Assembly: GCA_023150835.1 (NCBI GenBank)
Contig: JAKLKB010000013.1
Coordinates: 20,876 to 84,875 of the forward strand
From: Myxococcota bacterium
GTDB lineage: Bacteria; Myxococcota_C; UBA6777
DNA: 64,000 bases
Direction: 5' to 3'
In this document: positions 4,510 to 17,385 of the stretch, piece by piece
How positions within the stretch are numbered: the stretch's first letter is position 1
Layout: each line of letters starts with the position of its first letter
Notes under the pieces: generated by a model
Seen by the model: the letters and a program-made list of their open reading frames with translations, nothing else
Told to the model about the DNA's origin: nothing
Database searches by the model: none
Translations under genes and position numbers: made by a program

Positions 4510-6177
4510 TCAATCTTTGCGCTCAAGCCAAAGACTCCAAAGAACCAAAAAACCCAAGAGGCTGCCCAACGCATAACCACCAAACGAGAACCACGACAAA
4601 CCCAACAAGGCAGGCGTGCCAGAGTCCGCATTCATCGTCGCGATCAGCAAAAACACAAAGGACATCGCAACCATCAACTTGCGCCCATTTTGCCTGCGGT
4701 ACTCGCGCAAAAAAGCCTCGAACTGGACGTTATCGATCCCGAACTTGATCCGCCCATTTTCCACGCCCATCAAGATCTGTTGAGCGGTAACGGGGAATTG
4801 TTTAAGCAGACGAAGAAGCTGTGTAGACTGCCGAAAAAGCTGGTTGGTGATCGATTCAAAGCTGTATCGTTCTTTGACAACCGCCCGAACATAGGGCTCG
4901 ATCGCAGCGATCAGATCCATGTCGGGGTCCATCTGTTTGCCCACTCCTTCGACCGTGATCAGCGCCTTGAACATCATCGTATAATCGGGGGGAACCGCCA
5001 TGCGATGCCGCATCGCACCTTCCAAGATATCCTGCAACAACCCGCCAAACTCGATATCGGACATCCGCGCCCCCACAAGGTGCTTGTCCATCACCAACAT
5101 CACATCCGAAACAAATCGATCATAATCCACAGGCGCACGTTTTCGACCGATCTCGTACAGCACTTCGGCCACCCCTTCGTAATCGCGCCTGATCACCGCC
5201 AACAACAGATCGATGATGTAATCTTTCATCCGAGGCGTCAGCCGCCCAACCAAACCAAAGTCGATCAACGCCACAGACAGATCTTCTTCGATCAAGATGT
5301 TCCCGGGATGTAGATCCCCATGAAAAAATCCATACACAAAGATCATCTCACACACCACACGAAGTGTATTCTTGACGATCTGTACCCGATCTCCTAGAGA
5401 CTCCGTGATCTTCGAACCTTTGATCCGCTCCATCACAAGGATGCTTTTGTTCGACAAGGCGGGATAAGGGCGTGGGATATGCACCCCTTCGGCGTCTGCA
5501 AAGTTTTGGCGAAAGCGGTTGATGTTGCGTAGCTCGTGTGTAAAGTCGATCTCTTTTAAGATCTCTTTCTCGAACTCTTCGATCATCCCCACAGGATCGA
5601 ACAATTCGATGTCTGCAAAGATCTGTGTGGCTTGCTTTGCCAAGAACTTCATCAGCGAAAGATCGCTGGTCATCGACTCCCGCGCCCCCGGGCGAGCCAC
5701 TTTGACCACCACTTCGGTATCATCGGGCAGATACGCGATATGCACTTGTGCGATCGAAGCCGAAGCAAGGGGCTTTTCCTCAAAACGCAAAAACACTTCT
5801 TGGATCGGCTTTCCCAAAGACTCCTCGACTTGGATCTTGATCACCTCGAACGGAAGGGGCGCTGCGCTTGCTTGCAGGCGCTTAAACTCCACGATGTACT
5901 CTTCGGGGACGATATCTGCCCGTGTACTCAGGATCTGCCCCAACTTGATAAACGTCGGCCCCAACTCTTGGATCGCCATGCACAGACGTTGGGGCGTCGA
6001 CATCCCTTGATCGGGCTTGGCTTCTCCCACCAAGATCCGCCCGACGATATTTTCTTGCAGGTTCATCCGCGTCACCAGTTCGCCAAAACCATGACGCACC
6101 AGCACCGTGATGATCTGTCGCAAACGGCCAACATCTTGCCACGCTTGCCCGATATTCGCATACCGCAATGGGTTCAT
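4510..6177 (-). CDS. ubiB: ABC1/UbiB family atypical protein kinase-like protein
   Basis: This is a 555-residue member of the ABC1/AarF/UbiB family, ATPases that support quinone biosynthesis and lipid homeostasis at the membrane. Family motifs are present in order. The KxGQ region is FIKLGQILSTRADIVPEEY at about residue 80, and the Ala-rich loop replacing the glycine loop is PLASASIAQVH. The catalytic segment is HGDLHPGNIL and the metal-binding segment LIDFGLVGRL. Two membrane helices end the protein. Length and C-terminal helices match UbiB. I prefer ATG 6177, with GGGAGG 7 bases upstream, over TTG 6180. No ubiquinone or menaquinone gene is nearby, so the exact quinone pathway is open. Confidence 0.88.
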   Translation of the reverse strand: MNPLRYANIGQAWQDVGRLRQIITVLVRHGFGELVTRMNLQENIVGRILVGEAKPDQGMSTPQRLCMAIQELGPTFIKLGQILSTRADIVPEEYIVEFKRLQASAAPLPFEVIKIQVEESLGKPIQEVFLRFEEKPLASASIAQVHIAYLPDDTEVVVKVARPGARESMTSDLSLMKFLAKQATQIFADIELFDPVGMIEEFEKEILKEIDFTHELRNINRFRQNFADAEGVHIPRPYPALSNKSILVMERIKGSKITESLGDRVQIVKNTLRVVCEMIFVYGFFHGDLHPGNILIEEDLSVALIDFGLVGRLTPRMKDYIIDLLLAVIRRDYEGVAEVLYEIGRKRAPVDYDRFVSDVMLVMDKHLVGARMSDIEFGGLLQDILEGAMRHRMAVPPDYTMMFKALITVEGVGKQMDPDMDLIAAIEPYVRAVVKERYSFESITNQLFRQSTQLLRLLKQFPVTAQQILMGVENGRIKFGIDNVQFEAFLREYRRQNGRKLMVAMSFVFLLIATMNADSGTPALLGLSWFSFGGYALGSLLGFLVLWSLWLERKD

Positions 6178-6337
6178 CAAAAAGCCTCCCTCGGCTCAAA
6201 TAGACAGGTCACGACTCGCTTTTTTATCGTCCAGCTCGAAAAAGACGGTGACTTGCGAAAGAGTTGTTGCACAAGCAACCGCATCATACAAACATCCGAC
6301 AATCACCACAAACCTTTCCTTCACAAAAGGAACCTTT

Positions 6338-6913
6338 ATGCCCTTATACCGCTCGCTTTGCAACGCGCCCATTCCGCTCGGGCGTTTTTTTTGTTGGTTC
6401 GGAGTGTCGGCGCTGATCGTGATGGCAGGAGTGCAAGCCACACACGCGCAAAGTACCCGTCCCACCGCACAAAAAGAACGAGATTCCATGCTTTTGCGCC
6501 ATCGCATCGAGATGGGCGCACAAGTCGACTTTTCTCGCGACGCACGCGCCCCTTTTGGGGCGGGACTGCGCGTGGGTTATCAATATCGGATGCTTGCGCA
6601 GATCCACCTTGGCGCGTGGGTGCATTGGGCGTATCACGGCGTTGCGCAAGAGGCGCGGGCTGCGCTTGGTCTACATCTGCTCCTTGATCTGTTGCCGATC
6701 ATGCCCTTTCTTCAACTCAGCTTTGGCTTGCAAACCCGCCTCACGCCGATCGGCCTATTCTTTACACCGGACGTTCATGCGGCTCTCGGTGTCGAGATCC
6801 CGATCAGTACGCGCTGGCGTCTTGGTGCAGCCTTCCACTTTTACCTCCCCACTTCCCCCGAATCTTTCCCCACAACACAAAGCTTGCTTCTCCATGCGGC
6901 ATGGGTATGGTAG
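6338..6913 (+). CDS. Outer-membrane beta-barrel-like protein
   Basis: This 191-residue exported protein has a signal peptide of about 38 residues ending THAQ. The remainder alternates polar and aromatic/hydrophobic residues in short stretches bounded by Gly and Arg, ends in Trp-Val-Trp, and is typical of a small outer-membrane barrel. The start ATG 6338 is preceded by AAAAGGAA. The next gene, 60 bases on, encodes a protein of the same general type, so they may form a unit. No specific family is recognised. Confidence 0.7.
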   Translation: MPLYRSLCNAPIPLGRFFCWFGVSALIVMAGVQATHAQSTRPTAQKERDSMLLRHRIEMGAQVDFSRDARAPFGAGLRVGYQYRMLAQIHLGAWVHWAYHGVAQEARAALGLHLLLDLLPIMPFLQLSFGLQTRLTPIGLFFTPDVHAALGVEIPISTRWRLGAAFHFYLPTSPESFPTTQSLLLHAAWVW

Positions 6914-6972
6914 ACTCCAATCGTTTTGTATCCCTGAGGCCGCAACCTCACTTGTAGAGAAAGGAGCTTGGG

Positions 6973-7617
6973 ATGATCCACATCCTTCGCTGTATCCGTC
7001 AAATTGCTTTGTTTGGTTTGCTTCTTTCGGGCGCTTCCCTTGCCTTGCCTTCCCAAGCCCACGCACAATTCAAACACCACGGGTTGGGCATCATCGCAGG
7101 AACGCGCTACACCTTTAACGTCGAAGGCGATCCCAACTCTCCAAACGCGCTCGCCAAGCGTGGCTACGGCGTCAGCATCGCCTACTTCAATTTCGGCCTC
7201 GAATACCAATACCGCTTCCTCAACAACTGGCTCGTGGGTGTCGATGCCCATATCTCTTTCCATAGCTGCAACGCTGGAAATCCCCCTGTCTCCAAAGGCG
7301 GCTCTGCGGTCTGCGAACGCGCCGTCTCGACGCCGATTATGTTCGCCGCCATGACCGAGATCCGCTATCTTTTCCTGACCGACGAGTTCCGTCCCTACGT
7401 CGGTTTGGGGATCGGCGTCTGGCAATCGCTGGCTTTTGTCGAAGAAGGTCTGACTTCTTTTGGCGGCGTTGTGACGGTCGGATTTGAATACTTTGTCAAA
7501 GAAGAGATCTCGATCGGTTTGCGCATCCGAAACGGACTCCAACTGCTCATCGGAGCCCAAAATATCACGCCCTTTTATACCCTGTCTGGCGGCTTTGTTT
7601 TTAACGCCTACTTCTAG
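6973..7617 (+). CDS. Outer-membrane beta-barrel protein
   Basis: This is a 214-residue protein with a signal peptide (residues about 1-31, cleavage after SQAHA) and an OmpW/OmpA-barrel-like body: GLGIIAGTRYTF, YFNFGLEYQYRF, YVGLGIGVWQSLAF, and a C-terminal strand ending NAYF, the aromatic C-terminal signature of outer-membrane proteins. Two Cys in the middle could form a disulfide. A strong AAAGGAG site precedes ATG 6973. The imperfect inverted repeat TGAGG/CCTCA at 6934-6950 sits in its leader. The function is unknown. Confidence 0.75.
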   Translation: MIHILRCIRQIALFGLLLSGASLALPSQAHAQFKHHGLGIIAGTRYTFNVEGDPNSPNALAKRGYGVSIAYFNFGLEYQYRFLNNWLVGVDAHISFHSCNAGNPPVSKGGSAVCERAVSTPIMFAAMTEIRYLFLTDEFRPYVGLGIGVWQSLAFVEEGLTSFGGVVTVGFEYFVKEEISIGLRIRNGLQLLIGAQNITPFYTLSGGFVFNAYF

Positions 7618-7793
7618 CACCACACCTCAATGCCTACCTCTCACGTCACCCTGCGCTGACTCCCCTGCTTTCTCCTGTCTGATCCGCCTTTTCCTTCGTT
7701 TCTCTTGCTCACGAAAATCCTTTGACGGCGGGTGACTCTTCTGTTAAGAAGCGGGCCACACGCCCCAAGGCCCCCGCACAAGGAGATATCATC

Positions 7794-8342
7794 GTGTCGA
7801 TCTTCAAAGACTCTCCCTTCGAGATCCTGCTCACCCAAGAACAAATCCATACCCGCATCCAAGAACTCGGTGCGCAGATCACCCAAGACTACCAAGACAA
7901 AGATCTCGTCTTGGTCGGCGTCTTGCGTGGAAGTTACCTCTTCCTCGCCGATCTCTCCCGTCACATCGATCTGCCTTTGATCGTCGACTTTCTTGCGGTC
8001 TCTTCGTACGGCACACGCACCCAAAGCTCGGGGGTCGTTCGCCTGACCAGCGACCTCTCGACCTCCATCGTCGACAAAGATGTCCTCATCGTCGAAGATA
8101 TCATCGACACAGGCTTGACCATGAACTACTTGGTCGAAAATCTCCAAACACGAAAACCCCGTTCTATCCGCGTCTGCTCGCTCCTCGATAAACCTGCCCG
8201 CAACATCCAGCCCGTCACAGTTCACTACCTCGGCTTCGAGATCCCCGACAAATTTGTCGTCGGATACGGACTCGATTATATGGGACGTTATCGAAACCTC
8301 CCTTACATCGGCTTTCTTAGTCACCCTCCCGTCGAAGACTAA
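7794..8342 (+). CDS. hpt: Hypoxanthine phosphoribosyltransferase
   Basis: This purine salvage enzyme transfers ribose 5-phosphate from PRPP to hypoxanthine or guanine. I chose GTG 7794 because AAGGAG lies 9 bases upstream and the resulting 182 residues match the family length; the frame is open to 7722 but the extra residues are unlike the family. The PRPP-binding loop is VLIVEDIIDTGLTM. The N-terminal VLVGVLRGSYLFLADL and the flexible-loop region SSYG are typical, as is the C-terminal VVGYGLDYMGRYRNLPYIG. It is convergent with the giant gene that ends at 8411. Confidence 0.93.
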   Translation: MSIFKDSPFEILLTQEQIHTRIQELGAQITQDYQDKDLVLVGVLRGSYLFLADLSRHIDLPLIVDFLAVSSYGTRTQSSGVVRLTSDLSTSIVDKDVLIVEDIIDTGLTMNYLVENLQTRKPRSIRVCSLLDKPARNIQPVTVHYLGFEIPDKFVVGYGLDYMGRYRNLPYIGFLSHPPVED

Positions 8343-8410
8343 TCCCTCCCTCCCGCGAACTTCTTCCTAGACATACTCTCTCGATCGGGCGCAGCCCGCC
8401 CCTTGCTGCT

Positions 8411-11400
8411 TTATCTTCGGGGTGATCGGCGTTTGAAGGATCGCTTGCGTGTGGGTGGTTTGCTCACCTGCGCAGGCCCTCTTGTGTTTGCAGGCTCGCT
8501 CAGGGTGTGGAGGCTGGTATCGCGAAGTGCCGCGATCACCGCAGCATGCGAAAACTGACCCTGAGGGCGCAGGCTGACATGGTGAAGTCCTCGCCCTGCT
8601 GTCAACGCAAAGGGCGGTGCTTGCTGGAGCCTTGCCATCAGAGGCAGCGCTTCGCGTCCTGCCACCAACGCGCAAAGCTCGATCAGACGGCGCAAACGAG
8701 ATAGCTTCTTGAAGAGATCGCTCGCTCGTTCTCGAACATCTGCAGCACTTCGTGGGCGCTCTCCCTGTTTGCGTGTTGTGGTGTAGACCAGTAGTTCTCG
8801 TTCTAGCAAAGCGAGCAAAGCAGGCGCGATCGCCGCGTTTCTTTGTGCGCGCAACGCGAAAAACACGGTGCTTTCGTCAGCCCCTGCCTTTTCCAAAAGC
8901 TCCAACAGCACATACGCGGCCTCGGGCCGCTCAAAACGGCCCAACGCATAGATCGCTGCATTCCGAACATAAGAATGCTCGCCCGAACGCGCCCATCGTG
9001 CAAACCTCGGAAGATCGACGGGATTTTGAAATATTTGAAGCGCCCGAACAAACCCTGACAACGAAGCACGCGCACGTAAACTTTTGTGCATCTCAGCGTG
9101 CGGCTTCTTTTTACAGAACTTTTCGTACAAGCTTGGGTTGTCGATACCTCGGTAGATATTCAAGACCTGCAAGAAATGTTGGCGAGAAGACGTCGTGTTG
9201 ATGCGCGCCAGCGCGTTGAGAAAAGAAGCATAAGGGACATACTGCTTGTTCGGGGTACACAACAGCTTTTCCATGCTGTGGACCTCGATCTCTGTGGATT
9301 GAAAACGCCCAACATACCAAGTGAGTTGGCGCTCCAGATCTTCGGACCACACAGGCGTCGAAAGCAAGCGCGCAAGGGTCCGATAGGCTTCTTGCGAGCT
9401 AAACGCCCCCAAAGCTTGGCAGACATAGCGCGCAAACATTACCCGCAGCCCTTTCGGCCAACCTGCGAACGGCTCGTTTGGCGAACCCATCGCTTTTTGC
9501 AAAGCTTCCCAAACCAAAGAAAAATACTTGTTGTCGTGTGTGTAAGAGAGCGCCAACGCTGCAAACAGCCTTGTATCAACGGAAGACGTCGGATCGCGCA
9601 AAACCCCTTTGATCAAGGGGATGCTTCTATCCGCATCAAAACGCGCAAGCGTGCGGGCCAGTCGATCTTTTTGAGAGAACTCCCGCAAACCTTTGTAGTA
9701 TGCAGGCCGCAAAGCATGAAGCTTTTTGGAGTACTCTTTGTCTTTTCTTCGCTCACTGTAGCGCATCTCTTGCATCGCATAATAGGGCTTAATCTTGTCC
9801 AAATGGATGGGTTTGCGCAAGAACTCCAGCAAAAGCTGGGCAGCTTCTTTGGTATTGATCAAGTTAAAATAAGACAGCAACGGTTGCCAATATTCGCTAT
9901 CCTTGCCCAAAAGTAGCGTCTTGTAGATCGGCAAAGCCCGTTCTGCATGACCGCGTGTCAACAGGATATACATCGCACGATAGCGCAACATCTGCCAATC
10001 TGTGCCCAAAAAGCGCGGATCGTTTTCTTGTAGGGCGGCTTGCACAAGAACCTCGACCGCCTCTGGTGTGCCCACCTGACTGAGCGCGTAATACGCCCAA
10101 ACCACCGACCTTCTCAATCGATAGGGTACGCGGCGAGGCGAGGAGATTTTTTCAAGGCGATGCGGTTCTGTTTTTGCGCGCAAACCGCCTTGCGGAGGCT
10201 GTGCGGGGCTGTCTGTTGCGCGGGTGTCTGCGACAGGAACGGCCTTGGGAAAAGCATGACGGCTGGCTTGCTTGTCGGCGGGAGTGCGCAAACGCCGCAG
10301 CCATCGTTGGATCGCGGAGACATAGATATCACTTGGCGCGTAGCGCGCAAGCACCAAAAGCCGATCGTCGTCCTCGGCGTCTTCGTCGAGTCCTTGGAGA
10401 ACCCACGCTTGAACACCCGGTGTCGAGAGGCTGCGTAAGGCGTATTCAACGGTAGAACGGAACAATGCGATGCGTTTGTGCTTCATCAAAGCAAACAGGA
10501 TCGATTCGAGGCGCTTGATATGCCCCTGCTGCACCTCGCCATTGTTCACAGCAAGCGCAGCATAGGGCAACAAGTACAGATAGGGATGCACCCAATCCTC
10601 GTTTTTCTGACGCTGTGCAAGCACCTTTTCGATGGCGTCATAGTCTTCTAACCAAGCCCCCACAAGACGCGACATCTCAGACTGGATCCCCGCAAAAAAG
10701 CTGATCATCTTGCGTTCTTGCTGCACCAACAGCCGCTTTTGCTCGGCAAAAGGCAAGCGTGCGATCTGATAAGAAGCCCCTAACAACCGAAAGCTTTGAT
10801 CCACAAACCCCACATCTCCGACCGACAGCACACGCAAGACGCCGTTGTCCACCATCTCACGCAACAGCTTGCTTGACTGTTGCAGATCAAGCCGAGCCAA
10901 CAGCGCGATCTGTTCGAGTGCATCATCTCGCCGCACAGTCGGCGTTCTCTGGCGCAAGCTCAAAAAAGCCAATGCAGACAAAACCTTCATTTTCAGCGTC
11001 ATCTCAAAGGCCCCATGATCCAGCATATTACGAACCAGTCGATCGTAGATCACGCCGAGATTACGGGGAGCATGCCCCACCAACAAATAATACTGAACGC
11101 ACAAAGACAAGATCAAAGGGTGGCTGATATTTTGGCTCAAATAACCATTGTTCATCAGTTCCCGAAAAAAGCGCGCAGAGGTTTGTTTGTACAAAAACTC
11201 CCTTGCGACGCGGCTTTCATACGATTGTTGCTTGAGGCGCACAAAACGCGGTGCAAGCGACTCGATCACGGCGAGGCTGCGTTCTTTGTATACGGCTAAA
11301 ATCGTACGACTTTTTCCATAACGCTCTGCGAACTCTACAACCTTCGGCAGGAGATTGGCGGGACTGCCGGCCTGTTCGATCTGCGTAAAGTAGAAGGTGG

Positions 11401-13234
11401 CGGCTCCTTGTTGGAAAAGCTTCTCCAGTCCCTCAAACCGAAACAACGGCTCACGTTCGCCATTGTATCCCGTGATGTCGCGTGCGGCCTCTTGGATCGT
11501 TTGCTCGATCGATTCATTTTTGAGCTTTGAAAGATCGATGGCGATCGCCAAGCGCCCGGCTTGGGTGTCTTTGAGCATCTCTCGGGCAACAAGCACCTGC
11601 AACAAAGTCGAACTGCTTACAAGCAAGGCGATCTGCGACTTCTGCTTGTGTTCTGCCAACGGGCGCAACTGACGTGAGGACTCCAGCTCGTCTTTGGTCT
11701 TTGGGCTTGTAGCTCCGCTGCTTCCTCCCGATGCAGCGGCACTTCCGCCACCTGTGGATGCCGTCGCGTCCGCCTTCTTACCGCTGCCTTCGCTCTTTTT
11801 GCCTGCCGAAGCATCCGTCTCTTGGTTGGCTTGTTCCTCACTTTGTTCTAATGAAACGTAGATATCAGGAAACCTGCCCATGCTATCGAGCAGAGGATGG
11901 GCCTCCAACCGTGCGCGCAAGCGCTGGCGATAGAGCCTTGGGATCACCTGTTCGGCGCGCAGTGTTTGGACTTGATCTTCGGTGCCTTTGCGCAGATGCG
12001 CGAGATACGTTCCGATGTACGGAAAAGAAAGCCTTCCTTCTTTCGGGACTTCGGCCTTTTTGATCTCTGCCATCCCCTTATCGAGAGCAGCTTCCGCGTT
12101 GAGGACCGCTTTGGGAGAGGGATTTGGTGGACTCAAGGCCAAGCGAGCCACGACCACCTTTCTTCGTACAGTATCGAGCTTGTCGTTGTATTGATCGTAG
12201 TCTCGATAGTTTAGAAAGCTGATGATCAAAAAGATCAAAAACACCACCCCGAGGATGCTGCGCAAAGAAACTTGCGGCAGCTTTTCGAGCAGCCCCGAAA
12301 ACAGGTTGGCTCCCGGGACAAAGACCAAGATCGGCTTGAGATCGATCGACCGGTTAAGGATCGCATTCAATCCGCCCGGCAGTCCGACGATTTCGGCATC
12401 ATGGAGCGAAGTCGGCTCGATACCGCGCTGTTGGGCGATGGCATCCAAAACATCACCGACATCATCCGCGACGATCCGCACAAATGTCTGATGGTGCTGC
12501 GTCAGCCATTGCAGCGATGTTTGTGCGGTCGGTAGTTCTTCGATGACTTCGTCGTAATGGCGATCTTCGATCCAAACCACCGGCATCTCGGGCTTTGTGA
12601 CCACAAGCTTCATCAAGCCATTCATCATATCACTTGGATACGGGTGTTGGCCCGCCACGATTACCCCGTCCGTGGTGTCAAGCATGGCTTGGAGACGCTG
12701 CTTGACAAACATGGCTTCTCGGTTTCGCCGATCTTCTCGATCTTGAAAGATCAGGTCGTCCCACTCTTTGACAAGCTGTAGTCCATTTCCCGACCATGCG
12801 GGCTTTTCAAGCGAAACGACTTCGTAGGCGACGTGTTGTTGATCGAAGGCTTGTTCAAGCAGATCATCGGGCGCGCTGCTGACCACCCCCGCAAACATCC
12901 CGCTGCGCGCCAGATCCGCAAGCCGGATGATGCTTCGTTGTGGACGCAGGTTGTTTGTGTAATTGCGAAACCACTTGATCTGCTCTTGAAGTTGATCGGC
13001 CACAAACCCCAACGGCGCTTTGCCCGAACGCAAGGCTTGTTCCACACTGTCGGCGACTTCGCGACTTTGCGTCCGAAAGATATGGTAGCGCACCAGATCC
13101 GCGACACTCGGCGACCAAGAAGTCCGTTGAAAAGGCAACGGTACACCGCTCGTTGCACCAAGATGAGAGCCTGCGATCAACAACCACCGCTTTTTTGCAT
13201 CCTCGAAAACAGACAACGATCCCTGCCAAGACAT
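8411..13234 (-). CDS. Giant SIR2-like / transmembrane / NACHT-like / helical-repeat protein with degenerate active sites
   Basis: This is a 1607-residue protein; ATG 13234 has GGGAGG about 9 bases upstream. Residues about 15-260 fit the SIR2-like fold of defence proteins: LLIAGSHLGATSGVP where active members have GAGxS...G.P, SSAPDDLLEQAF where they have TTNxDxLLE, and GVIVAGQHPYPSD where they have a GYSxxD segment. One membrane helix lies at about 325-342. A Ser/Gly/Ala-rich linker (475-510) leads to a STAND/NACHT-like region at about 530-760 with LLVSSSTLLQVLVAREML at the P-loop position (no GxGKS/T), AIAIDLSKLK, a Walker-B-like ATFYFTQIEQ lacking acidic DD, and HPLILSLC. The C-terminal 800 residues are helical repeats resembling HEAT units. 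The layout resembles NLR-like defence proteins, but key catalytic residues are replaced, so it may be a sensor or scaffold. Domain calls are by eye. Confidence 0.75.
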   Translation of the reverse strand: MSWQGSLSVFEDAKKRWLLIAGSHLGATSGVPLPFQRTSWSPSVADLVRYHIFRTQSREVADSVEQALRSGKAPLGFVADQLQEQIKWFRNYTNNLRPQRSIIRLADLARSGMFAGVVSSAPDDLLEQAFDQQHVAYEVVSLEKPAWSGNGLQLVKEWDDLIFQDREDRRNREAMFVKQRLQAMLDTTDGVIVAGQHPYPSDMMNGLMKLVVTKPEMPVVWIEDRHYDEVIEELPTAQTSLQWLTQHHQTFVRIVADDVGDVLDAIAQQRGIEPTSLHDAEIVGLPGGLNAILNRSIDLKPILVFVPGANLFSGLLEKLPQVSLRSILGVVFLIFLIISFLNYRDYDQYNDKLDTVRRKVVVARLALSPPNPSPKAVLNAEAALDKGMAEIKKAEVPKEGRLSFPYIGTYLAHLRKGTEDQVQTLRAEQVIPRLYRQRLRARLEAHPLLDSMGRFPDIYVSLEQSEEQANQETDASAGKKSEGSGKKADATASTGGGSAAASGGSSGATSPKTKDELESSRQLRPLAEHKQKSQIALLVSSSTLLQVLVAREMLKDTQAGRLAIAIDLSKLKNESIEQTIQEAARDITGYNGEREPLFRFEGLEKLFQQGAATFYFTQIEQAGSPANLLPKVVEFAERYGKSRTILAVYKERSLAVIESLAPRFVRLKQQSYESRVAREFLYKQTSARFFRELMNNGYLSQNISHPLILSLCVQYYLLVGHAPRNLGVIYDRLVRNMLDHGAFEMTLKMKVLSALAFLSLRQRTPTVRRDDALEQIALLARLDLQQSSKLLREMVDNGVLRVLSVGDVGFVDQSFRLLGASYQIARLPFAEQKRLLVQQERKMISFFAGIQSEMSRLVGAWLEDYDAIEKVLAQRQKNEDWVHPYLYLLPYAALAVNNGEVQQGHIKRLESILFALMKHKRIALFRSTVEYALRSLSTPGVQAWVLQGLDEDAEDDDRLLVLARYAPSDIYVSAIQRWLRRLRTPADKQASRHAFPKAVPVADTRATDSPAQPPQGGLRAKTEPHRLEKISSPRRVPYRLRRSVVWAYYALSQVGTPEAVEVLVQAALQENDPRFLGTDWQMLRYRAMYILLTRGHAERALPIYKTLLLGKDSEYWQPLLSYFNLINTKEAAQLLLEFLRKPIHLDKIKPYYAMQEMRYSERRKDKEYSKKLHALRPAYYKGLREFSQKDRLARTLARFDADRSIPLIKGVLRDPTSSVDTRLFAALALSYTHDNKYFSLVWEALQKAMGSPNEPFAGWPKGLRVMFARYVCQALGAFSSQEAYRTLARLLSTPVWSEDLERQLTWYVGRFQSTEIEVHSMEKLLCTPNKQYVPYASFLNALARINTTSSRQHFLQVLNIYRGIDNPSLYEKFCKKKPHAEMHKSLRARASLSGFVRALQIFQNPVDLPRFARWARSGEHSYVRNAAIYALGRFERPEAAYVLLELLEKAGADESTVFFALRAQRNAAIAPALLALLERELLVYTTTRKQGERPRSAADVRERASDLFKKLSRLRRLIELCALVAGREALPLMARLQQAPPFALTAGRGLHHVSLRPQGQFSHAAVIAALRDTSLHTLSEPANTRGPAQVSKPPTRKRSFKRRSPRR

Positions 13235-13404
13235 ACGACAACCTCCCTCTTGATGGCCTATTTGGCCTTGTTGCCTTCTTTTGGGACTCTTGCTCCCTTT
13301 GGACGACCGGGGCGACTTGGATCGAAGTAACGCGGTGAACAAAAAACCCTGTGTTCGCGGACGTTCAAGCGACGGTTCCGTTGGATTGGAATCTCTCTGC
13401 TCTC

Positions 13405-13472
13405 TTCGCCCCTCACGGGATCAAGGGGCGAAATTCCCTTGTGGGGCGTGGAGCAAAGCCCCAAACCATCCA
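13405..13472 (+). repeat. Dispersed repeat family A copy 2
   Basis: TCACGGGATCAAGGGGCGAA is followed by TTCCCTTGTGGGGCGTGG and AGCAAAGCCCC. It matches 1141-1203 in the same orientation and 53852-53914 inverted. The 268-base gap between the giant gene and the acyl-CoA dehydrogenase is otherwise without recognisable features. The similar lead-in (GTGTTCGCG...TTCAAGCGAC...CCGTTGG) also occurs near 1089-1122, so the repeat unit is about 130 bp long. Confidence 0.65.
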
Positions 13473-13502
13473 ACCGTATCGATCCGAGGGCATCCGAAAA
13501 GT

Positions 13503-14651
13503 TTAACTTCTCTCGGGTGCGTTTTTCCACCATGCTTCGGCGAGGGCGTATTGTTGGGCGCTTGCGCCGCCCCACCGTGTGCGCAACGTTTGAGCATCCC
13601 GATAATGGCGTTCGACAGGAAACTCACGAATAAAGCCGTATCCTCCGTGTATCTGGATCGCTTCTTGGCCGATCCAAACGGCAGCTTCGCCCGCAAAAAG
13701 CCGTGCGGCTCGCCCAAGCACCGAGACTTCTTCCCATGCGCCGCGTTGCCACGCCTCGGCGGCCTGATCAACCAAAAGCTGCGCAGCGTCCGCCTTCATC
13801 GCCATATCCGCCAGTTTCCACTGGATCGCTTGAAACCCACTGATCGCCTGTCCAAACTGATGGCGTTGTTGCGCATATCGGATCGATTGGGCCAGTGCTG
13901 CTTGGGCGACACCGACTTGCAAAGCGGCGATCGCGATCCGACCGCTTGCCCACGGATCAAACGAAGCCAAGTCGCCCGTGAGTCGGGCAGTTTCAGGAAT
14001 CATGCTCTCTGGAACAACAAGGTGCGCGACCTCCGCCCCCCGCAAACCCAGTTTCCCCTCGATCACACGGGCTTCGACCCGCTCGCGCAACGCTCCCTCT
14101 AGCACAAAGTATTGCGGCTTCCCTGCCCTATCCACCGCGCTTAACAACAACAGCGATGCGGACTTGCCCAAAGTGACAAACCGCGCTTCTCCTTGCAGTT
14201 GCCACGCCTCTCCCACGCGCTCAGCGCGCAACAAGCCACCCCATCGGCCCGCAGGATCGGCTTCTTTCGCAAAGACTTCTCCGCCACACGCCATCCACGC
14301 ACCGTTTGCCAAAGCGCCCAACCACCGGTCTTTTTGCGTCTCGTCTGCCGCAGCGCATAGCAGCGGAACGCACCAAGCATTCTGTAACGCCGCAACCACC
14401 GCCAAAGAAGCATCGACCGCAGCCACCTCCATCAAGACCCGACAGCACGTCACAGCGTCCATCTCCGAACCACCGTAAGCTTCGGGGATACGCATCGCAA
14501 GCAAGCCATACGAACCCAACGCCTCGATCCCTTTGGAAGCAAGACCTTCTGCGTGTTCTGCAACAGCCGCCAACGGAGCCATCTCTTTTTTTGCAAAATC
14601 CCGTACTTGTTCAATAATTAAGCTTGCGTCTGCATTCAAATCGAATCGCAA
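13503..14651 (-). CDS. Acyl-CoA dehydrogenase family protein, catalytic Glu not found
   Basis: This is a 382-residue FAD flavoprotein of the acyl-CoA dehydrogenase family, normally oxidising acyl-CoA to enoyl-CoA. The start is TTG 14651 with an ideal GAGGAGGTG 5-6 bases upstream. Family segments are present: N-terminal helices (LRAMRIPEAYGGSEMD-like region), RIAIAALQVGVAQAAL, YAQQRHQFGQAISGFQAIQWKLADM, and IQIHGGYGFIREFPVERHYRDAQ. After RDA the usual Tyr-Glu-Gly-Thr with the catalytic base is Trp-Gly-Gly-Ala, and the alternative Glu position of the isovaleryl type also looks non-acidic. It may therefore be inactive or catalyse something different. It lies upstream of the giant gene and downstream of sctV, all on the minus strand. 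Confidence 0.85.
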   Translation of the reverse strand: MRFDLNADASLIIEQVRDFAKKEMAPLAAVAEHAEGLASKGIEALGSYGLLAMRIPEAYGGSEMDAVTCCRVLMEVAAVDASLAVVAALQNAWCVPLLCAAADETQKDRWLGALANGAWMACGGEVFAKEADPAGRWGGLLRAERVGEAWQLQGEARFVTLGKSASLLLLSAVDRAGKPQYFVLEGALRERVEARVIEGKLGLRGAEVAHLVVPESMIPETARLTGDLASFDPWASGRIAIAALQVGVAQAALAQSIRYAQQRHQFGQAISGFQAIQWKLADMAMKADAAQLLVDQAAEAWQRGAWEEVSVLGRAARLFAGEAAVWIGQEAIQIHGGYGFIREFPVERHYRDAQTLRTRWGGASAQQYALAEAWWKNAPERS

Positions 14652-14776
14652 AAAACACCTCCTCAGCCCAACAACGGGCCTCCCATCGGCTTTTTCAGCA
14701 CAACAGCAACGCAAAGACGGCGTGAGAAACAGCGAACGCCGATCGAGCGCCGCGATCTGGGGTCACATCGGTTCGA

Positions 14777-16948
14777 TTAGCGACGGACACTGATGCGTGC
14801 GACGGGTTGGATATTCATATCAGGGTTGAGTTCTTGGAAAGAAAGAACGGCAAGATAGGGGAATTCGAGTTTGACCAGCTGGCGGAAGTAACGGCGGATC
14901 TCGACGTTGGTCAAGATGACGGGCTGTTGGGCAGTTGCAGGGAGGTCACCGATCTCAACGCGCACAGCGTCGAGGATATCTTGTGCGATCTCGGGTTCAA
15001 GGGCGAGATAGTTCCCCGACGAGGTGATCTGGATCGAGTCCTTGATGGCTTGTTCGATTTGTGGATCAAGCAGATACACGACGAGGGTATTGCCGCCTTT
15101 GGAGTATTTGTAGGTGATGTAGCGTTTCATCGACATCCGAACATACTCGGTCAACATGACGGGATCTTTTTCGACCTGCGCCCATTCGGCGAGGGCTTCC
15201 ATGATCGCCTTGAGGTTGACGATCGAGATCTCTTCTTCGACAAGTCGTCGGCAAACATCCGTAAACTGTTGCAAGGACAAGACTTTGGGGACGACTTCTT
15301 TGATCAACGCGGGGAAGGCTTGTTCGAGTTTGTCGAGCGAAGATTGGACTTCTTGGATACCGACGAACTCGTAAGCAAAGCGGCGCAGGACGCTAGAAAG
15401 ATGCAGGATCATGTATCCCGGGGTGTCCCACGTGGTGTAGCCCGATTGTTCGACCAGTTCCTTTTTCTCGGCAGGGATCCAACAAGCATCCATCCCGTTG
15501 GCGGGGTTGACGGTGGGTTCTCCTGCGACGTTCATAATCGCCAAACGGTCGGCACTTTCGTTGACAAGAACTTTTCCAAGCGGGACTTGGCCGACAGCGA
15601 CGGGGACTTCGTTGAGTTTGAGGATGTAGGTGTCATCGGGTAGATGAGAGCAAAAGCCGCGAACACGGACCCCGGGGAAAGTGACCCCAAGCTCGTAAAA
15701 GAGGCCCTCTTTCATCAAGGGGAGCATATCGTTGAGGAAGCGATCGCCCGATTCGGTGGCGGAGTCGACGTAAGGTGTGAGCGCGTTGGAGACTTCCATT
15801 GCGATCGGTGTGACGATCGGGACAAGCTCTTGGGGTTCGCGCTCTTTTTTCTTTTTCTTTTTGTCGGCGCTTGGGGCAGGACGAGCTTCGGGGGGAAGCT
15901 CTGCGGAGGGGGTTTCTTCGGCCTCGGCTCCACCGCCTCCGACGGACTTGACTTCGCGGACTTTTTTCAAGCTGTACGCCAAGAAGCCAACACCTGCGGC
16001 CAAGATAATAAAGGGTAATTTTGGCAGACCGGGAACCAGAGCAAGCAAGACCAGCAAGATGCTGATGATAAAGTAGGGTTTGTGGTTGGCGAGAAGCTGT
16101 TGGCCGATATCCGAACCAAGGTTCGATCCTTCCGTTTCAGGAGCGACCCGCGTGACGATGATCCCCGCAGAAACGGAGATCAAGATCGAAGGGATCGAAG
16201 ACACCAGACCGTCTCCGATCGTCAACATCGCAAACTTTGAAGCAGCCTCTCCAGCGGTCAGACCCATCATCATTACGCCGATGACGATCCCTGCGAGGAC
16301 GTTGATCGCGGTGATGATGATCCCTGCGATGGCATCGCCTTTGACGAACTTCATCGCACCGTCCATTGCGCCAAAGAGTTGAGACTCACGCTCAAGATCA
16401 CGACGACGGCGACGGCCTTCGTCCATATCGATCGCTCCTGCCCGCATATCCGCATCGATCGACATCTGCTTTCCCGGCATCGCGTCGAGCGTAAAACGTG
16501 CCGCGACCTCGGATACCCGCTCGGAACCTTTGGCGATAACGATAAAGTTAATCAACATCAAGATCAAAAAGACGATCGCTCCAACGACCATATTCCCGGC
16601 CACAACGAAGTTTCCAAAGGAAGTGATCACCTCGCCCGCGTCTGCATACAGCAAGATCAAGCGCGTTGAAGACACGTTGAGTCCGAGGCGAAACAACGTT
16701 GTGACTAACAAGATCGACGGATACGCCGACAGATGCAGCGCTGACGGCATATAGATCGCGATCAGCACCAAGGTCAGCGAGATCGCAAAGTTGACGGTCA
16801 ACAAGATATCCATAATGAACGTCGGGAGGGGGATGATCATCAACGCCACAACCAACACGATGATGCTCGCAAGACCGATATCTGCGTAACGCGTCAAGGT
16901 GTTGGTCCAAGTCCCCTCCATCAGTTGGGTCTTAAAGTCTTTCGCCAC
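14777..16948 (-). CDS. sctV: Type III secretion export-gate protein SctV (FHIPEP family)
   Basis: SctV forms the nonameric export gate of the injectisome in the inner membrane; FlhA is the flagellar counterpart. The protein has 723 residues. I prefer GTG 16948, with GAGGA six bases upstream, over ATG 16981, which lacks a ribosome site. Eight or so membrane helices lie in residues 20-320. The family block LFRLGLNVSSTRLILL, INFIVIAKGSERVSEVAARF and TLDAMPGKQMSIDAD is nearly textbook, followed by GAMDGAMKFVKGDAIAGIII. A Lys-rich linker leads into the cytosolic ring domain from about 390. The SIDAD wording and absence of flagellar genes favour SctV over FlhA. The SycD-like chaperone gene lies upstream on the same strand. 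Confidence 0.85.
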   Translation of the reverse strand: MAKDFKTQLMEGTWTNTLTRYADIGLASIIVLVVALMIIPLPTFIMDILLTVNFAISLTLVLIAIYMPSALHLSAYPSILLVTTLFRLGLNVSSTRLILLYADAGEVITSFGNFVVAGNMVVGAIVFLILMLINFIVIAKGSERVSEVAARFTLDAMPGKQMSIDADMRAGAIDMDEGRRRRRDLERESQLFGAMDGAMKFVKGDAIAGIIITAINVLAGIVIGVMMMGLTAGEAASKFAMLTIGDGLVSSIPSILISVSAGIIVTRVAPETEGSNLGSDIGQQLLANHKPYFIISILLVLLALVPGLPKLPFIILAAGVGFLAYSLKKVREVKSVGGGGAEAEETPSAELPPEARPAPSADKKKKKKEREPQELVPIVTPIAMEVSNALTPYVDSATESGDRFLNDMLPLMKEGLFYELGVTFPGVRVRGFCSHLPDDTYILKLNEVPVAVGQVPLGKVLVNESADRLAIMNVAGEPTVNPANGMDACWIPAEKKELVEQSGYTTWDTPGYMILHLSSVLRRFAYEFVGIQEVQSSLDKLEQAFPALIKEVVPKVLSLQQFTDVCRRLVEEEISIVNLKAIMEALAEWAQVEKDPVMLTEYVRMSMKRYITYKYSKGGNTLVVYLLDPQIEQAIKDSIQITSSGNYLALEPEIAQDILDAVRVEIGDLPATAQQPVILTNVEIRRYFRQLVKLEFPYLAVLSFQELNPDMNIQPVARISVRR

Positions 16949-17385
16949 GTCGATCCTCGTTTGCTTGGGTGTCTTGCGCATCTGTCAGCACGACAAACAC
17001 GCCCATATCGACACGGTTATCCGAATAGAGTGAGGTGGTTTTGTGTTGGGTATCGGCTCTCTCAACGCGCACGCCTTGCCAGATATCCGCGCACGAAGCA
17101 AAACGTTTTGCGCCAAACGACGGGCGTTTTGACCACGCCCAACACAAAGAAACCGATTCGCGCACCACTATACACCAACTTCTCCCAAACGAAAATAGCT
17201 TCTTTTTGGGGAAAGAATGGGTGTGTTGAAGAAAGCAGAAAAGGAAGAAAAAAAGCAGAGCGAACAAGGCGAGAAAAGAGCGGAGGATGATCCGATGATC
17301 TCGCCGAAAGGCAAGAAGAAAAAAGAAAGCGGAGGATGATCCGATGATCTCACCGGAAGGCAAGAAGAGGAAAGAGAGCGGAGGA
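16949..17385. other. Intergenic region between sctV and the TPR chaperone gene, partly repeated
   Basis: The 437 bases contain no convincing gene. The left two thirds are featureless. The part from 17281 repeats the 3' end of the adjacent TPR gene in 49-bp units (see separate entry). The minus strand here is pyrimidine-rich (runs of TTTTTCTTC around 17230-17280), which could serve as Rho-type or weak termination sequence; no stable hairpin with a T-run was seen. Confidence 0.5.

Follow-up and report, generated by a model that had tools for sequence, protein, structure and literature searches.

A giant Myxococcota protein with SIR2-like, NACHT-like and HEAT-repeat parts that is conserved in spite of the loss of its catalytic motifs

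The window analyzed here is a stretch of 64,000 nucleotides from a Myxococcota bacterium (contig JAKLKB010000013.1), whose genome assembly is fragmented and amounts to 7.56 Mb. It contains a gene for a giant protein with an N-terminal SIR2-like domain, a predicted transmembrane helix, a NACHT-like centre and a long array of HEAT repeats (Table 1). This layout had been proposed in a preliminary description, which was made from the sequence alone, and each of its parts was recovered by the analyses described below. The reading frame on the minus strand starts with an ATG at position 13234, a GGGAGG stretch resembling a ribosome-binding site lies upstream, and the same ATG is used by the orthologue in the sister genome G001. 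A collection of 386 genomes was searched for relatives, five of which belong to the phylum of the window. The family was found to have four members in three of these five genomes. Besides the window protein, they are the G001 protein from the same genus (91% identity) and two proteins of genome G003, which are encoded on contig 109 (38% identity) and contig 101 (28% identity). All four genes have intact reading frames of about 1530-1610 codons. The family was not found in the two genomes of the third genus of the phylum, and the 386 genomes yielded no relative beyond the three named above; the remaining matches were weak, helical and apparently spurious. Around residues 58-136 there were a flagellin match in the PDB and weak matches in G022 and G088, and these were discounted as helical noise. 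In a scan of genome contigs the sister metagenome-assembled genome was the only match.

Searches of Pfam, NCBIfam and PDB sequences did not reveal a SIR2 or a NACHT match in the protein, and the assignment of the SIR2-like and NACHT-like parts is thus based on fold and profile comparisons. An AlphaFold model of residues 1-500 was of modest confidence (mean predicted local distance difference test value, pLDDT, of 55). Residues 1-282 of this model have a sirtuin fold (best Foldseek E-value 4.4e-5; VIA-align Z 14.4), and the top structural matches were sirtuins and defence SIR2 proteins (SPARSA, SIR2-HerA). The profile comparison with hhalign against 20 SIR2_2 sequences gave a P-value of 4.8e-5, and it paired GSHLGATSGVP with GAGxSxxxGIP and SSAPDDLLEQA with TTNYDxLLExA. 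Pairs of unrelated control profiles had probabilities of 0.2-0.7%, and thus at most 0.7%. In addition, the phage defence candidate PDC-S65 of PADLOC matched residues 105-143 at the TTNxD region (E-value 6e-4). This weak local match was seen in one of the four members and comprises only 39 residues; the rest of the giant protein was unmatched.

The alignment of the four members revealed that the residues needed for SIR2 catalysis are lost, as had been noticed before for the GAGxS and TTNxD motifs. At the first site G22, G30 and P32 are retained, while the NAD-binding residues, i.e., the second glycine and the serine of GAGxS, are gone. At the second site the catalytic asparagine is replaced by alanine or threonine in all four members, and the aspartate two residues further on (D123) is retained. 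The catalytic histidine of the HG motif probably corresponds to E143, a glutamate that is invariant in all four members; this position was placed manually between the aligned motifs. The fold of a SIR2 domain is therefore present according to Foldseek and hhalign, but the catalytic asparagine and, by this placement, the histidine are absent.

The same combination of a retained fold and lost motifs was found in the centre of the protein. When hhalign was first run against a mixed STAND set, NACHT was not matched. Thereafter, a NACHT set of open reading frames with intact Walker motifs was picked, and the match had a probability of 83% and a P-value of 8.7e-6, which is the better of two tries. 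It spans about 280 columns, from the P-loop through the NACHT helical domain (NHD) and the winged-helix domain (WHD) to about residue 825. A model of residues 501-1255 (mean pLDDT 64) had NLRP14 and NLRC4 among its top Foldseek matches, Cdc6 and ORC were also found, and NLRP3 was matched with a Z-score of about 10-11. AAA+/ORC and importin folds were also listed for the second half, but NACHT was preferred because the hhalign match runs through NHD and WHD. The Pfam NACHT profile (PF05729) did not match any of the four members at an E-value of 10.

The nucleotide-binding motifs of this NACHT-like fold are eroded in all four members. The P-loop had been described as lacking its lysine, and this is correct, but the change goes beyond a mutation: GxxxxGK[ST] is missing altogether, and we read the profile alignment as showing a loop shorter by about 4-5 residues. 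The Walker B site had been described as devoid of acids, which holds true for one of its two acidic positions. The first aspartate is replaced by threonine, leucine or proline in the four members, while the second acid (E620, aspartate in the distant members) is present as glutamate or aspartate throughout.

The two halves are connected by a single strong hydrophobic segment (residues 322-340), which has a mean Kyte-Doolittle value of 2.5 in the window protein and of 1.9-2.5 across the four members. It is followed by predicted helices at residues 324-367, 374-393 and 405-445 and by a Ser/Gly/Lys linker that differs among the members. The C-terminal half matches Pfam HEAT_2 (E-value 3e-15 in the window protein), and HEAT_2 was found in all four members. 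Its net charge is +45 to +109 among the members, and the last 60 residues contribute +11 to +19. Of all cysteine positions, only C1326 and C1374 are invariant among the four members.

Table 1. Positions of the gene and its features in the window
Feature	Position	Strand	Evidence
Whole gene, 1607 aa	8411..13234	-	ORF (open reading frame) list, upstream sequence, orthologue with identical start
SIR2-like domain with sirtuin fold and lost enzyme residues (residues 1-285)	12380..13234	-	AlphaFold model, Foldseek, VIA-align, hhalign, PADLOC
GAGxSxxxGIP site, reads GSHLGATSGVP	13139..13171	-	Four-member alignment
TTNxD site, reads SSAPDD	12863..12880	-	Four-member alignment, hhalign
E143, probably at the position of the catalytic His (HG motif)	12806..12808	-	Four-member alignment
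Predicted transmembrane helix, residues ~322-343	12206..12271	-	Hydropathy, four of four members
Helical stalk (residues 344-445) following the transmembrane segment	11900..12205	-	Predicted helices
Low-complexity Ser/Gly/Lys linker, residues 465-520	11675..11842	-	Alignment, pLDDT <50
NACHT fold that lacks the nucleotide-binding motifs, residues 530-680	11195..11647	-	Structure model, hhalign P 8.7e-6
P-loop site, reads IALLVSSSTLL	11600..11632	-	hhalign, four-member alignment
Walker B site, reads TFYFTQIEQ	11372..11398	-	Four-member alignment
NHD (PLILSL...APRNLGVIYDRLVRNML) and WHD, residues 681-850	10685..11194	-	hhalign, secondary structure
HEAT-repeat array, strongly basic, residues 851-1500	8735..10684	-	Pfam HEAT_2, charge, Cys alignment
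Polybasic C-terminal tail	8414..8512	-	Charge of the last 60 residues

Selection was analyzed by comparing the window gene with its G001 orthologue. The ratio of nonsynonymous to synonymous substitution rates (dN/dS) was 0.11 for the whole gene, 0.082 for the SIR2-like domain (bootstrap interval 0.041-0.150), 0.059 for the NACHT-like domain (0.020-0.119) and 0.137 for the HEAT array (0.100-0.176). The bootstrap intervals overlap, but the replacement rates differ between the SIR2-like domain and the HEAT array (p 0.002) and between the NACHT-like domain and the HEAT array (p 0.02). For scale, the values of the neighbouring genes for UbiB and an outer-membrane barrel were 0.019 and 0.044, respectively. 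The giant protein is thus constrained yet not among the slowest-evolving proteins, and constraint is stronger on its two dead domains than on the HEAT array. The G003 copy on contig 101 is equidistant from the other members (27-28%), which suggests that it is the product of an old duplication. As all members are dead at the same sites in spite of identities of 28-91%, the loss of the motifs would predate the split of the G003 paralogues.

The gene is located among core genes and not in a defence island. Its upstream neighbours encode an acyl-CoA dehydrogenase and SctV, its downstream neighbours HGPRT, an outer-membrane barrel and UbiB, and TPR, DnaK and NusA genes are farther off. The block of UbiB, outer-membrane barrel and HGPRT genes (window 4510-16981) is kept in all three genera of the phylum. 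The giant gene adjoins this block in the genus of the window only, and the slot beside HGPRT differs from genus to genus. In G004 and G002 the gene beside the block was considered as a positional relative, but it encodes a different giant NACHT-like protein without significant similarity. Synteny seemed to be conserved with a UbiB-like kinase that is linked to the family in G003, but this kinase is a paralogue and the true UbiB orthologue lies elsewhere. The distant G003 copy (L008:2538-7450 with 7589-12193) follows a bacteriophytochrome-type histidine kinase and a PAS hybrid kinase of the same strand at a distance of about 160 bases, and a link to signalling is possible. SctV, the export gate of type III secretion (window 14777-16981), has an orthologue in G003 that is 81% identical, and a non-flagellar type III system may be common to both genomes.

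Related architectures are known from bacterial immunity. Avs5 (SIR2-STAND, AVAST type V) has an N-terminal SIR2 domain, a central STAND NTPase and C-terminal repeats like the giant protein, and immunity requires its SIR2 asparagine and aspartate as well as the Walker A glycine and lysine (PMC12931631). The giant protein lacks this asparagine and Walker A and has only the aspartate left; it differs further by its membrane helix and its annotated non-defence neighbours. The layout of effector, NACHT and sensor is shared with the bacterial NACHT proteins, for which TIR or Sir2 effectors have been reported (PMC10952713, PMC12169576), but in the giant protein both the NTPase and the effector sites are dead and a membrane helix lies between them. 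Eroded Walker motifs in a STAND/AAA+ fold and a proposed sensor role are features of the inactive STANDs (iSTANDs, BrxB) of MoxR-vWA and BREX systems (PMC7159879, PMC8195603, PMC12839542). These evolve fast, have MoxR-vWA or BREX partners and in many cases are devoid of the C-terminal helical bundle (PMC7159879, PMC12839542), in contrast to the giant protein, which retains NHD and WHD, has a slowly evolving domain and for which no partner was found. Inactive STANDs are known, and a doubly dead, membrane-anchored SIR2-NACHT-HEAT protein is a new variant. A conserved SIR2-NACHT protein with two dead sites was not described in any paper found by the literature searches, which is not a proof of absence.

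Because both active sites are destroyed and the gene is nevertheless under strong selection, we infer, with a probability of about one half, that the protein is a membrane-anchored, non-enzymatic receptor or scaffold that descended from an immune-type SIR2-NACHT-HEAT protein. The preliminary description had arrived at a sensor, decoy, scaffold or housekeeping protein from a conserved fold with lost chemistry, and the fold, profile and motif analyses agree with it; models without a Rossmann or P-loop fold and relatives with intact motifs had been named as grounds for rejecting it, and neither was encountered. The core-gene context, which is kept between the sister species, the lack of defence genes among the scanned neighbours and purifying selection favour a receptor, scaffold or housekeeping role over a decoy. 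The HEAT array would bind a partner, and its positive charge suggests an anionic surface, i.e., nucleic acid or an anionic membrane or envelope polymer. The NACHT-WHD module would act as an assembly or hinge platform free of adenosine triphosphate (ATP), and the change would travel via the stalk and the membrane helix to the pseudo-SIR2 domain, which would dock or release a partner rather than destroy NAD. A single helix without a signal peptide would usually place the SIR2-like domain in the cytoplasm and the NACHT-HEAT part outside. This would explain why ATP binding became dispensable, and the invariant cysteine pair is compatible with a disulphide outside of the cytoplasm.

Several points weigh against this interpretation. 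A weaker hydrophobic stretch (residues 297-317) could form a re-entrant hairpin, by which both ends would stay inside, and domains as basic as this one are commoner in the cytoplasm, so that the topology is not settled. The models, for which four sequences were used, are of moderate confidence, either fold may still bind a ligand, no partner gene is linked, and the two G003 copies lie in other contexts.

The main competing explanation, which is possible though clearly less probable, is an anti-phage sensor similar to the iSTANDs, in which invader nucleic acid would be bound by the dead NACHT/HEAT part and an effector encoded elsewhere would do the killing. It fits with the strongly basic NACHT-HEAT half, the distant similarity to defence SIR2 proteins and the proposal that iSTANDs are nucleic-acid receptors in counter-invader systems (PMC8195603, PMC12839542). 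However, no MoxR, vWA, BREX or other defence gene was recognized among the annotated neighbours, MoxR and vWA had no Pfam match among those scanned in the window, L008 and L009, known iSTANDs evolve fast and the giant protein slowly, and no relative was found in the searched viral contigs and plasmids.

It is rather improbable that one or both domains retain a non-canonical activity or ligand. The conserved D123, the acid in the Walker B region and the invariant E143 would agree with this, as would the observation that the HG motif of Avs5 can be NG (PMC12931631), but the lost asparagine, glycine and serine and the absent, shortened P-loop argue against it. Somewhat less probable still is that the protein acts as a helper or brake by joining an active NLR-like protein of its own cell in mixed assemblies. 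The genomes of the phylum do encode other NACHT/STAND proteins, and in some of these the P-loop is intact, but none of the five genomes had a SIR2_2 match and there is no close active paralogue, so that an active partner with the same architecture is not obvious. Lastly, the lost active sites might indicate a decaying immune gene without function, but selection on the dead domains should then be relaxed. The measurements show the opposite, and the frames of all four genes are intact, which makes this explanation very unlikely.

A second giant NACHT-like membrane family was found in all five genomes of the phylum (L088:7866-13994, i.e., G004:C80:57865-63990; G003:C172, G001:C303, G000:C16, G002:C105 and C238). 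Its members have about 2,000-2,170 residues where complete, with several predicted N-terminal transmembrane segments, a NACHT-like domain and a TPR-like C-terminus. Walker B is intact (hhhhDGFHE), the P-loop reads GxxGxGH[T] with histidine in place of lysine (leucine, GL[S], in G002), and dN/dS in the genus of the window is 0.136. There is no significant similarity to the window protein. With this family in five genomes, predicted membrane-bound NACHT-like proteins with damaged P-loops recur in this phylum. Three loci of one unrelated genome (L025, L044 and L048 of G064) encode CHAT-like proteins with a C-terminal SIR2-like domain in which GAGxS and in some cases also TTNxD are degenerate.

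Taken together, the receptor or scaffold interpretation concerns a protein in which both halves of an NLR-type machine, the effector and the switch, lost their chemistry and yet stay the best-conserved parts. It offers a natural test of the roles that NACHT and SIR2 folds have without ATP and NAD. A wider and tentative idea, which we consider rather doubtful, is that in this little-known lineage NLR-type immune proteins have become core components of the cell, with two or more unrelated families of giant, membrane-bound pseudo-NACHT proteins selected without nucleotide chemistry and, in the SIR2 family, a sensor half that would work outside of the cytoplasm without ATP. The finding also bears on the question whether immune receptors become domesticated for other membrane tasks of bacteria, as has been proposed elsewhere for non-enzymatic relatives of TIR and STAND proteins.
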